This document shows, piece by piece, positions 34,293 to 37,431 of a stretch of 64,000 nucleotides of DNA. The stretch is from Parvularcula dongshanensis (GTDB lineage Bacteria > Pseudomonadota > Alphaproteobacteria > Caulobacterales > Parvularculaceae): positions 496,001 through 560,000 of the forward strand of contig NZ_JACHOB010000001.1 in NCBI RefSeq assembly GCF_014199615.1, in the 5' to 3' direction. Below the pieces are notes generated by a model. It did no database searches. It had not been told where the DNA came from and was given only the letters and a program-made list of their open reading frames with translations. Position 1 is the first letter of the stretch; every line of letters begins with the position of its first letter. The translations under genes and the position numbers were made by a program.

Positions 34293-34393
34293 GATGATGC
34301 TCGAAATGCTGCCGATGATCTAGGCAGCGCAGCGCCACTTGTCACCCCCCTTGCATGCTGCGATGCCGCAGCGCGAGCGGAAGGCAGGCATCG

Positions 34394-35341
34394 ATGAGCA
34401 GCGTCGGCGTCATCATCGTGAACTACGGAACGGCGGACCTCGTCCTCGCCGGCCTGGGCGCGACGCGCCGCGAGGCGGCCGCCCATAACGGCTCGCACGT
34501 CTACATCGTCGACAATGCCTCGCCCGGCGGCGACGCCGACAAGCTCGAGGCCGCGACCGCCGGGATGGCGGACGTCACCGTCGTCGCGGCGCCCAGGAAT
34601 GGCGGCTTCGCCTATGGGAACAACCGGGCGCTCGAAGCCGCCGAGGGACGTGGCCACGACGCCTACTTCATGCTGAATCCGGACGCCTATCCGCGCGAAG
34701 GCGCGCTCGGGCGCCTCGTCGAGACGATGGAGGCGCACCCCGACGCCGGGATCGTCGGCGCGCGGGTCGAGAACGAGGACGGCAGCCCGCGCTCCTACGC
34801 CTTCGAGTTTCCCTCCGCCCTCGGCGAGCTCGCCTCGACCTCGGCCCTGGGCGCCGTCCAGCGCCTGACCGGCAAGGTCGCGAAGCCGCAGGCGGTGGAC
34901 GGGCCCGCGCCCTGCGACTGGGTCACGGGCGCGGCCTTCCTCATCAGGCGCGAGGCGATCGAGGCGGCGGGAGAGATGGACGAGGGCTTCTTCTTGTACT
35001 TCGAGGAGGTCGACTGGAACCTCGCCGTGCGCCGCGCCGGGTTCAGCGTGCTGACCGAGCCGCGCGCGCGGGTCGTGCACTACGCGGGCGCCGCGACCGG
35101 TCTTCAAGGCGGCAAGGCCGTCGGAAAGCCGCTGCCGACCTACTGGTATGAGAGCTGGCGGCGCTACTTCGTCAAGAACCACGGCCCCGCCTACGCGGCC
35201 GGCGCGGCGCTTTGCTACCTCGCGGGGACCGTACTCGTCACGGTCAAGGACACGATCGCCGGACAGCCGCGGCGCGGCGGCGCCCGCCTCGGGACCTTCG
35301 CGCGCATCTGCCTGCTCGGCGCCCTTCGGGGCCGCGCATGA
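34394..35341 (+). CDS. GT2-family glycosyltransferase (rhamnosyltransferase-like)
   Basis: A 315-residue inverting GT-A glycosyltransferase. VGVIIVNYGTADLVLAGL is the nucleotide-binding start, VDNASPGGDAD and NGGFAYGNNRALEAA follow, and FMLNPDAYP is at the DxD-like position. DWVTGAAFLIRREAIEAAG and FFLYFEEVDWNLAVRRAGF are typical of rhamnosyltransferase/WbbL-like enzymes. The C-terminal part carries hydrophobic and basic segments that may bind the membrane. Start at ATG 34394. Its stop overlaps the ATG of the ligase-acyltransferase fusion (ATGA), so the two proteins are made together, suggesting glycosylation plus acylation of one product. Confidence 0.88.
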   Translation: MSSVGVIIVNYGTADLVLAGLGATRREAAAHNGSHVYIVDNASPGGDADKLEAATAGMADVTVVAAPRNGGFAYGNNRALEAAEGRGHDAYFMLNPDAYPREGALGRLVETMEAHPDAGIVGARVENEDGSPRSYAFEFPSALGELASTSALGAVQRLTGKVAKPQAVDGPAPCDWVTGAAFLIRREAIEAAGEMDEGFFLYFEEVDWNLAVRRAGFSVLTEPRARVVHYAGAATGLQGGKAVGKPLPTYWYESWRRYFVKNHGPAYAAGAALCYLAGTVLVTVKDTIAGQPRRGGARLGTFARICLLGALRGRA

Positions 35342-37431
35342 GCCGGAACGAGGCCCAGGCCGCCCTCACCCCGAACGAAGCGCTCGGCCGTCCGGTGGTG
35401 GGCGTCGTCGCGGCGAACGGCCCCGAATACGTCCGTACGCTGCTCGGCCTCTTCCGCGACGGGAAGGTCGCGGTGCCGCTGCGCGCCGCGGACGACGCCG
35501 AGCGGCTGAGCGCCACGGGGGCGGAAGACGTCGCCGCACCCGCGCCGGGCGGCGGCTGGATCGAGGAACGCTACGCCGGGACCGGCGAGGACGGCCCCGC
35601 CCTCGTCAGCTTCACCTCCGGAACCGAGGGCGAGCCCAAGGCGATCGTCCTCTCCCACGCCGCGCTCGAGGACGTCGTCGCGCGCCTGACCGAGGCGATG
35701 GGCGCGACCGAGGCCCTTCGCGAGTATGTCGGCGTTCCCGTCACGCACTCCTTCGGCTTCGGCCGCTGCCGCCTCGCCGCGGCCGTCGGCGGCAAGGCCT
35801 TCGTCCCCGAGGGCGGCTTCGACCCTTACGAACTCGCGGCGATGATCGAGGCGGGCGAGGTCAACGCCGTCTCCGCCGTGCCGAGCCTCTGGCGCCTCGT
35901 CCTCGCGCGCCCGGACCTCTTCCGTACGGGAAGCCGGAACGTCCGCTGGATCGAGATCGGCAGCCAGTACATGGCCGCCGACGAGAAGCGCGCCTTGAAG
36001 GCGCTCTTCCCCAGCGCCGCGATCTTGCAGCACTACGGACTGACCGAGGCCTCGCGCAGCACCTTCCTTAGGATCGATCAGGCACCGGACGACCGCCTCG
36101 AGAGCGTCGGGCGCGCCGTCGGCGGCGTCGAGGCGCGGATCGGCGAGGGCGGCAGGATCGAGATCAAAGGCCCCCACCTCGCGAGCGGTCGCCTGACCCC
36201 GGCGGGCATCGTTCCGATCACGCAAGGGGACGGCTGGCTTCGCACCAGCGATCTCGGGCGGATCGAGGACGGTTACGTCTACTACGAAGGCCGCGCGGAC
36301 GACCTCATCAACTGCGGCGGCAAGAAGCTGTCGCCGGACCGCATCGAGCGGGAGGTCGCCCGGCGTCTCGGCGTTGCGGGCGGCTTCGCCCTCGCCCGGC
36401 TGCCCGACGCGCGCTACGGCGAGCGGGCGCTGCTCGCCATCGAGGACGGCGCAGACCTCGACGAGGAGACGCTGCGCGCCGGCATGGCGGAGAGCCTGTC
36501 CGCGGAGGGCGTCGACGCCCGTTCGGTACTGACGGTCACGCGGCTGGCCGCCCTGCCCCGCACGGCGACCGGCAAGGTGCAGCGCCGGCTCGTTGCGCAA
36601 GCCTACCTCGAAGACGAGGCGGCGGCTTCGGCGCCGGTCGCCGCGGACCTGCCGCTCGAAGATCGCCTCGCTTCGCTCTTGGGCGAGGCGCGCCTCGACC
36701 CTTCGCGCTCCCTGCGCGCCTACGAGGCGGACTCGATCACCAGCCTCGAAGCCGCCATGCTGCTCGAGGGGGAGGGCGGGCGGCTGCCCGCGGGTTGGCT
36801 CGACCTGCCGCTCTCCACGCTCCTAGCACGGACAGACGATGGGGGAGCCGAACAGCGTCCCGTCTTCGAGAAGAACGAGGGGCGCACGAACGGCAACCCG
36901 AAGGACATCGGCCTCCTCGCCCTCATCCGCGAGGACTTCCGTACGCATGAGAGCGACCTCCTCTCGCACGGCTTCTGGGCGCTGTTCTGGCACCGCTTCG
37001 CCAACTGGCGCATGGGGGTGCGCTTCAAGCCCGCCCGTATGGTCCTGACCCTGATCTACCGCTTCTCCGTCCACCTCGTGCGCGGCTGGAGCGGGATCAA
37101 GCTCGACTACACGGTTCGGGTGGGCCGCCGCGTCAAGCTCGAGCACTTCGGCGGCATGATCCTCGGCGCGCAGTCGATCGGGAACGACGTCACCATCCGT
37201 CAGAACACGACCTTCGGCGTCGGTCGGCTCTCGGCGCTCGACGAGAAGCCGATCATCGAGGACGGCGTGAACATCGCGACCGGCGCCGTGATCGCGGGCG
37301 GCGTCGTGGTCGGGCGCCACTGCGTCATCGGACCGAACGCGGTCGTCACGGCGGACGTGCCGCCTTACTCCATCGTTCAGGCGGCGCCGGTGGTGGTGAC
37401 CGCGTCCGCGCCGCGTACGAAGCGCAAGTAG
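35338..37431 (+). CDS. Acyl-adenylating ligase - carrier protein - left-handed beta-helix acyltransferase fusion
   Basis: A 697-residue three-part protein. Residues of about 1-440 are an AMP-forming acyl ligase: ALVSFTSGTEGEPKAIVLSH (P-loop), LQHYGLTEASRSTF, LRTSDLGRIEDGYVYYEGR and the catalytic lysine in LPRTATGKVQRR. Residues 440-490 resemble an acyl carrier domain, with Ser466 in ADSITSLEA matching the DSLxxxE phosphopantetheine site. The last 170 residues resemble CysE/WcaF-type hexapeptide acyltransferases (ALIREDFRTHESDLLSHGFW, then IGNDVTIRQNTTFGVGRL and GVNIATGAVIAGGVVVG). One chain could activate, hold and transfer an acyl group. Coupled to the GT2 gene. Confidence 0.85.
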   Translation: MSRNEAQAALTPNEALGRPVVGVVAANGPEYVRTLLGLFRDGKVAVPLRAADDAERLSATGAEDVAAPAPGGGWIEERYAGTGEDGPALVSFTSGTEGEPKAIVLSHAALEDVVARLTEAMGATEALREYVGVPVTHSFGFGRCRLAAAVGGKAFVPEGGFDPYELAAMIEAGEVNAVSAVPSLWRLVLARPDLFRTGSRNVRWIEIGSQYMAADEKRALKALFPSAAILQHYGLTEASRSTFLRIDQAPDDRLESVGRAVGGVEARIGEGGRIEIKGPHLASGRLTPAGIVPITQGDGWLRTSDLGRIEDGYVYYEGRADDLINCGGKKLSPDRIEREVARRLGVAGGFALARLPDARYGERALLAIEDGADLDEETLRAGMAESLSAEGVDARSVLTVTRLAALPRTATGKVQRRLVAQAYLEDEAAASAPVAADLPLEDRLASLLGEARLDPSRSLRAYEADSITSLEAAMLLEGEGGRLPAGWLDLPLSTLLARTDDGGAEQRPVFEKNEGRTNGNPKDIGLLALIREDFRTHESDLLSHGFWALFWHRFANWRMGVRFKPARMVLTLIYRFSVHLVRGWSGIKLDYTVRVGRRVKLEHFGGMILGAQSIGNDVTIRQNTTFGVGRLSALDEKPIIEDGVNIATGAVIAGGVVVGRHCVIGPNAVVTADVPPYSIVQAAPVVVTASAPRTKRK

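Follow-up and report, generated by a model that had tools for sequence, protein, structure and literature searches.

A 64,000-nucleotide stretch of the Parvularcula dongshanensis genome (the window, in which positions without a prefix are counted) encodes a polypeptide of 697 residues that joins an AMP-forming ligase, a short carrier domain and a left-handed beta-helix acyltransferase, and that has a family 2 glycosyltransferase (GT2) as its partner. This three-part enzyme is real, and it is rare. The preferred reading, to which a probability of about two in three is given, is that the fusion is a self-contained, carrier-dependent enzyme decorating a glycan with an acyl group other than acetyl. 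The ligase domain would adenylate a small carboxylic acid, and Ser466, through a putative phosphopantetheine arm, would take up the acyl group. Transfer would then fall to the beta-helix domain, for which a trimer is expected from its CysE relatives and in which His603 would act as the base; the acceptor would be an amino or hydroxyl group on a sugar that the neighbouring GT2 makes or extends. If this is true, a single protein would take a free acid all the way to a sugar ester or amide.

The fusion reads from an ATG at 35338 to a stop codon ending at 37431, and the bases ATGA at 35338-35341 are shared with the stop of the GT2 gene, an overlap that an initial annotation of the sequence had described. 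The end given there was correct, and the start, 34394, is that of the GT2, for which an alternative in-frame ATG is present at 34355. Its assignment of a ligase, a carrier and a beta-helix domain to one polypeptide is borne out, as are the coupling to the GT2, SFTSGTEGEPK, the lysine of TATGKVQRR and Ser466. The whole protein scores above the Pfam cut-offs for AMP-binding (1.7e-30, 106.5 bits, cut-off 29.9) and Hexapep (PF00132; 1.5e-8, 34.4 bits, cut-off 27). PP-binding is sub-threshold on the whole protein (0.0064, 17.2 bits, cut-off 20.8), and the isolated carrier segment passes the same cut-off with PF00550 (21.3 and 21.9 bits in two runs).

The carrier region is, on alignment evidence, homologous to carriers of the GGDSL type. 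The pair Asp465-Ser466 is kept as D-S in all eight aligned carriers of the clade (that of the window counted), four of which have GGDSL, and six of the eight rows match PF00550 at E 0.1. A profile of the eight carriers matches 109 sequences of the PDB (E <=0.01), and the 60 that were listed are all acyl carrier proteins (ACPs) or carrier-bearing synthases. Alignment of the three known fusion carriers with seven others by hhalign gave an E value of 4.2e-5 and a probability of 69.7; moreover, a G-x-LP-x-x-W stretch is common to the fusions and two plasmid-borne relatives. In an AlphaFold2 model of the fusion (monomer, 31 rows, mean predicted local distance difference test score (pLDDT) 81.2), the carrier has helices at residues 440-448, 466-480 and 492-496, with block pLDDT values of 62-84. 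Ser466 starts the second helix, so that the carrier fold proposed around it at the outset agrees both with this homology and, at moderate confidence, with the model.

The C-terminal domain consists of helices (residues 526-585) followed by a left-handed beta-helix, and enzymes of the EpsC/CysE/WcaB type are among its best family matches. It had been described as CysE/WcaF-type; CysE and EpsC are the nearer family, and WcaF scores far lower. The scores lie under the curated cut-offs, both for EpsC (NF041874; 1.9e-23, 83 bits, cut-off 150) and for TIGR01172 (72.2 bits, cut-off 210.65), and the domain matches PDB 1t3d at 3.6e-14. The catalytic His158 of CysE is shared with these enzymes (as His603), together with the beta-helix; unlike them, the fusion carries a ligase and a carrier at its N-terminus and is devoid of the serine-binding residues. 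CysE D157, R192 and H193, counted among the residues of the serine site in the part of the source consulted (PMC9547175), are replaced by E, E and K. The fusion is therefore hardly a serine acetyltransferase, an identity that was rejected; two Streptomyces transferases adjoining a cysteine synthase, used as controls, retain D/R/H. Compared with six standalone members of the family, the three fusions have Pro for Ala222, Glu for Gly (641) and Asn for Asp (645), and the GAxAxGxPAR-like C-terminal end (GxPAR) is missing. It has to be considered whether the domain is an ordinary polysaccharide acetyltransferase and the ligase-carrier part belongs to some other reaction. The standalone relatives, which pair with a GT2 and retain GxPA[RK] and Ala222, fit such an explanation, but the fusion has been maintained in three diverged genomes, and elsewhere such transferases have other kinds of link to ligases and carriers; we regard this explanation as improbable.

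The ligase is a member of the ANL family: besides the Pfam match it contains SFTSGTEGEPK, HYGLTEAS, GRADDLINCGGKK and TATGK, the A3, A5, A8 and A10 motifs. Its model has a pLDDT of 83-98 per 10-residue block, except for 70 at residues 91-100, and MatB is the top Foldseek match of the fusion model. The ligase-carrier structures 3rg2, 4iz6 and 4r0m are aligned by Foldseek over 530-599 columns, gaps included, with query TM-scores of 0.37-0.49. The N-terminal part is short (35338-35610), with the Pfam match starting from profile position 159 of 384, and in the scanned relatives the match begins at position 137-158. The substrate pocket of the nine clade ligases, mapped on presumed PheA numbering, reads F G R L/Q I/L/M I H R S/T K (the final K lies outside the Neorhizobium galegae piece). 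At the position taken as Asp235 of non-ribosomal peptide synthetases (NRPSs), all nine have Phe (Phe139 in the window protein), and all nine have Arg at positions 239 and 330. The Asp235 of an alpha-amino-acid NRPS adenylation domain is hence lacking, a result only as good as the presumed mapping, and an alpha-amino-acid ligase is disfavoured. Together with the two arginines, R143 and R240 in the window protein, this suggests that the substrate is probably a small acid other than an alpha-amino acid, perhaps carrying a second acidic group. The scheme of activation, tethering and transfer to a sugar put forward in the initial annotation is supported by inference, the sugar being the probable acceptor, and the alpha-amino-acyl group that it allowed for is unlikely because of the Phe at the position taken as 235.

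The nearest described architecture is that of Pls/PosA, homopoly-amino-acid synthetases with a TIGR02353 terminal domain; these ligase-carrier-beta-helix polymerases resemble the fusion in having a ligase, a carrier and a left-handed beta-helix part on one chain. In the sections of the report drawn on here (PMC10522769), PosA is described as a ligase-carrier with six predicted membrane helices and three beta-helices, which polymerises L-ornithine, and its modelled beta-helices pack like sugar-nucleotide acyltransferases. An amino-acid joining enzyme of this kind, with the beta-helix domain as the condensation site, would account for the identical domain order and for that packing, as well as for weak TIGR02353 matches of the G009 fusion domain (0.006) and the standalone G004 transferase (2.4e-4). 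These matches reach 15-20 bits, that of G009 15, against a cut-off of 423, and TIGR02353 is not among the best 25 of the 42 families matched by the window segment. In addition, the fusion has a single CysE-like unit instead of three beta-helices with six membrane helices, is partnered by a GT2 and has no Asp235-like residue in any of the nine ligases on the presumed mapping, all of which make a Pls/PosA-like activity very improbable.

The fusion occurs full-length at the same place in three of the 10 genomes of the genus, its own counted. The two other copies (G003 and G009; 100 genomes searched, own one counted) are 54 and 55% identical to it and lie between the same neighbours. Misassembly or chance read-through of adjoining genes, for which no supporting point was found, is therefore rejected, with a negligible residual probability. 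In G004 and G008 a GT2 and a standalone transferase are present at the site of the fusion (the G008 contig ends shortly afterwards), and the ligase-carrier module therefore looks like an add-on. Standalone transferases lie near the same genes in G041 and G019 and elsewhere in G021 and G016, and a GT2 homologue is directly upstream of the transferase gene in all nine loci of the family. As the three fusions form one clade (100/98) in the transferase tree, the module was most simply added once, within this genus. In that step an older polysaccharide acyltransferase, already partnered by a GT2, would have gained a ligase-carrier module in frame at its N-terminal end. The transferase subfamily occurs in 9/62 genomes of the taxonomic family (E 1e-30), in 12/299 of the order (E 1e-35; three of them distant) and, of 385 drawn from the class, in P. 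dongshanensis only (E 1e-30). The ligase-carrier clade (E 1e-60) is found in 5/62, in 5/299 and, of 385 of the class, again in P. dongshanensis only; in the class and order searches the first few candidates per genome were scored, and misses are possible.

More distant transferases are encoded beside separate carriers and loading enzymes (G482, G541, G497 and two Paracoccus plasmids), which supports the carrier-dependent reading. In G482 an FkbH-domain protein (TIGR01686, 288 bits, cut-off 147) and an ACP come after the transferase; the likeness of G541 consists of gene order and lengths only. Such loci look, from their gene content, like glyceryl-type loading for a sugar. In G497 the transferase precedes an ACP-like frame of 101 residues with an LDSLD motif (no Pfam match at E 1), a short-chain dehydrogenase/reductase and an AMP ligase. 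The rows of the two Paracoccus plasmids are a split counterpart of the fusion. In that of P. aminophilus the adjoining ligase comes near TIGR03098 (503.8 of 592 bits) and the pyridoxal phosphate (PLP) enzyme near TIGR03099 (360 of 478); the L078 ligase and PLP enzyme are TIGR03098-like and TIGR03099-like. The exosortase-A-associated system, composed of a TIGR03098 ligase, an ACP and a PLP decarboxylase (TIGR03099), has a ligase and a carrier in common with the fusion, and differs in that the window ligase is far under the TIGR03098 cut-off (106 against 592 bits), is fused and adjoins no PLP enzyme. GT2-transferase pairs are also present inside polysaccharide clusters in G021, Palleronia and Rhodobacter. 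No carrier is annotated within 9 kb on either side of the Palleronia and Rhodobacter pairs, and none is among the five neighbours searched in G021.

The nearest relatives of the ligase-carrier module (L036, L043, L044, L073 and L074) end in a membrane domain of many helices. L036 is from Litoreibacter and has three carriers in tandem; L073 (Novosphingobium) and L074 (Paracoccus zhejiangensis) are from plasmids. A tree without the N. galegae row groups all eight ligases in one clade (100/100) and gives no firm branching order of the fusions within it. Acyl_transf_3 matches the membrane domain of L073 at 3.3e-5 and that of L074 at 0.021, both under the cut-off. R-X10-H, absolutely conserved in AT3 domains according to the text available from one source (PMC9833829), stands at the start of four of the five membrane domains, and K-X10-H at that of the fifth. 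Each of these proteins would combine an AT3-like enzyme with an acyl loader of its own; the window protein itself has no domain resembling AT3 membrane acyltransferases (PF01757). The same putative loader on two unrelated transferases, a soluble CysE-like beta-helix and an AT3-like membrane domain, would favour carrier dependence. It is conceivable, at somewhat less than even odds, that one loader, composed of a short-N ligase with a conserved two-Arg pocket and a carrier, serves two unrelated glycan acyltransferases, both fed by a carrier instead of coenzyme A (CoA).

A TauD-type dioxygenase gene directly precedes the loader gene in two of these loci (L036:7009-7941 and L043:6191-7135); its product may act on the acid or on the acyl group once loaded. 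In N. galegae (L075:8962-11181) the ligase and the carrier-membrane part are in separate frames; the gene therefore looks broken, or the record has an error.

A further explanation is that the ligase makes an acyl-CoA and that CoA thioesters are the donors of the beta-helix domain, in which case the short carrier would be vestigial or no more than a linker. CoA ligases such as MatB are the top ligase matches, the carrier match is weak when the full protein is scored and missing for G003 and G009, and acyl-CoA, not ACP, is taken as the donor of AT3 enzymes in the portion of a review considered here (PMC9558356). Set against this are the D-S serine of all eight carriers, four of them GGDSL, the disappearance of GxPAR and Ala222 from the fusions and the separate ACP genes that adjoin relatives, and CoA-dependent transfer is considered unlikely.

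Several observations weigh against carrier-dependent decoration of a glycan. The pocket reading depends on presumed PheA numbering, the carrier segments of G003 and G009 on their own have no PF00550 match even at E 10, and the search of the genome gave only one ACPS-family transferase, the candidate loader of Ser466. The beta-helix is modelled at a pLDDT of 33-61 past about residue 590. The matches to AT3 are weak: at E 10, Acyl_transf_3 finds nothing in three of the five membrane domains, and a model of this kind of domain, at a pLDDT of 49, has no Foldseek match at E 0.001. The whole fusion is found on no plasmid, as none of nine matching records (E 1e-20; 72,556 searched) covers 80% of it, and the transferase frame of Rhodobacter sp. 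CZR27 (L077:8839-9390) is without most beta-helix repeats, an apparent internal deletion. Among the residue changes, GxPAR is also missing in the two Streptomyces CysE, and the Lys that replaces Asp143 of the catalytic dyad in the fusions is also present in the standalone G021. Two carrier-linked Paracoccus transferases retain Ala and GSPA[RK], Paludibaculum retains Ala, and Pro222 arose twice on the tree, which is too few changes for significance.

Pro222 with loss of GxPAR had been entertained as a general mark of carrier use, and was dropped after the Paracoccus and Paludibaculum rows broke the pattern. Before wider sampling, the combined mark was present in 3/3 fusions, 3/3 loci of the f2 family and 0/6 standalone family members; afterwards Pro was present in 6/9 carrier-linked rows and in 0/14 rows not known to be carrier-linked. 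As the rows were hand-picked and the tree holds two changes, Pro222 is a lead and no test. Labels of carrier linkage were set from the displayed genes, that of the second transferase of the P. dongshanensis genome from two neighbours, and the R. grahamii row came without neighbour data. Ligase, HAD-IIIC or NRPS genes lie a few kilobases from the transferases of the two Streptomyces rows. The Rhodobacter row, which has no letter at position 222, was removed before the tree was built.

Systems of ligase, carrier and acyltransferase acting on surface polymers are a known kind. In the Dlt system, separate proteins activate D-alanine, tether it and, by an MBOAT transferase, pass it to a cell-surface polymer; the scheme is common to the fusion, and the division among proteins, the substrate and the transferase differ. 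The one-chain form with a CysE-like domain was not found described in search listings of the open-licence PubMed Central literature. The initial annotation knew of no described system of this exact make-up; within the literature searched this fits the one-chain CysE-like form, and Pls/PosA and the Paracoccus rows are precedents for its plan. If the loader does serve both kinds of transferase, this would be the first case, within the literature searched, where both draw a special acyl group from a covalently bound carrier and where fusion made an acetyl-CoA beta-helix enzyme carrier-dependent. The standalone transferase, the separate ligase and ACP, the one-chain fusion and the same loader on an AT3-like domain form a natural series. 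This series bears on the way in which a beta-helix enzyme that uses CoA comes to depend on a carrier, and on whether AT3 enzymes accept carrier-borne acyl groups, where the review, in the portion considered, favours acyl-CoA (PMC9558356).

Table 1. Positions of the fusion, its parts and related loci (prefixed positions refer to the locus named).
Feature	Position	Strand	Basis
GT2 glycosyltransferase, 315 aa, partner gene	34394..35341	+	PF00535 2.6e-11
Ligase - carrier - beta-helix acyltransferase fusion, 697 aa	35338..37431	+	Open reading frame, Pfam, full-length relatives in G003 and G009
AMP-forming ligase (adenylation) domain, residues ~20-430, N-terminal part short	35395..36627	+	PF00501; Foldseek; model
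A3 motif SFTSGTEGEPK, residues 91-101	35608..35640	+	Sequence
A10 lysine K413 in TATGKVQRR	36574..36576	+	Sequence; invariant in 6 aligned rows
Carrier (PP-binding) domain, residues ~437-496	36646..36825	+	PF00550 on segment; hhalign; model helices
Ser466, presumed phosphopantetheine site	36733..36735	+	D-S invariant in 8/8 aligned clade carriers
CysE/EpsC-type acyltransferase domain, residues 511-697	36868..37428	+	PF00132; NF041874; PDB 1t3d
His603, equivalent of CysE catalytic His158	37144..37146	+	Invariant in 9 aligned rows
Pro666, equivalent of CysE Ala222, in IGPN	37333..37335	+	P in 3/3 fusions, A in 6/6 standalone relatives
CysE-like transferase, FkbH-domain protein and ACP in a row, with divergent GT2	L069:8212-11058, L070:8244-11105		L070 by order and lengths only
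GT61 - serine acetyltransferase (CysE-like) - AMP-binding ligase - ACP - PLP enzyme	L078:4910-9607, L083:4836-9564		Two Paracoccus plasmids
Ligase-carrier-membrane fusions	L036:7953-11159, L043:3380-6187, L044:5831-8377, L073:8971-11442, L074:9022-11466		Closest ligase relatives

The GT2 and fusion genes form a plus-strand pair flanked by minus-strand genes, presumed to be nusA/rimP upstream and trmB/metK downstream. With the neighbours so identified, the pair is a small island amid housekeeping genes. With its last 55 bases (37377-37431) the fusion gene overlaps the convergent trmB-like gene.

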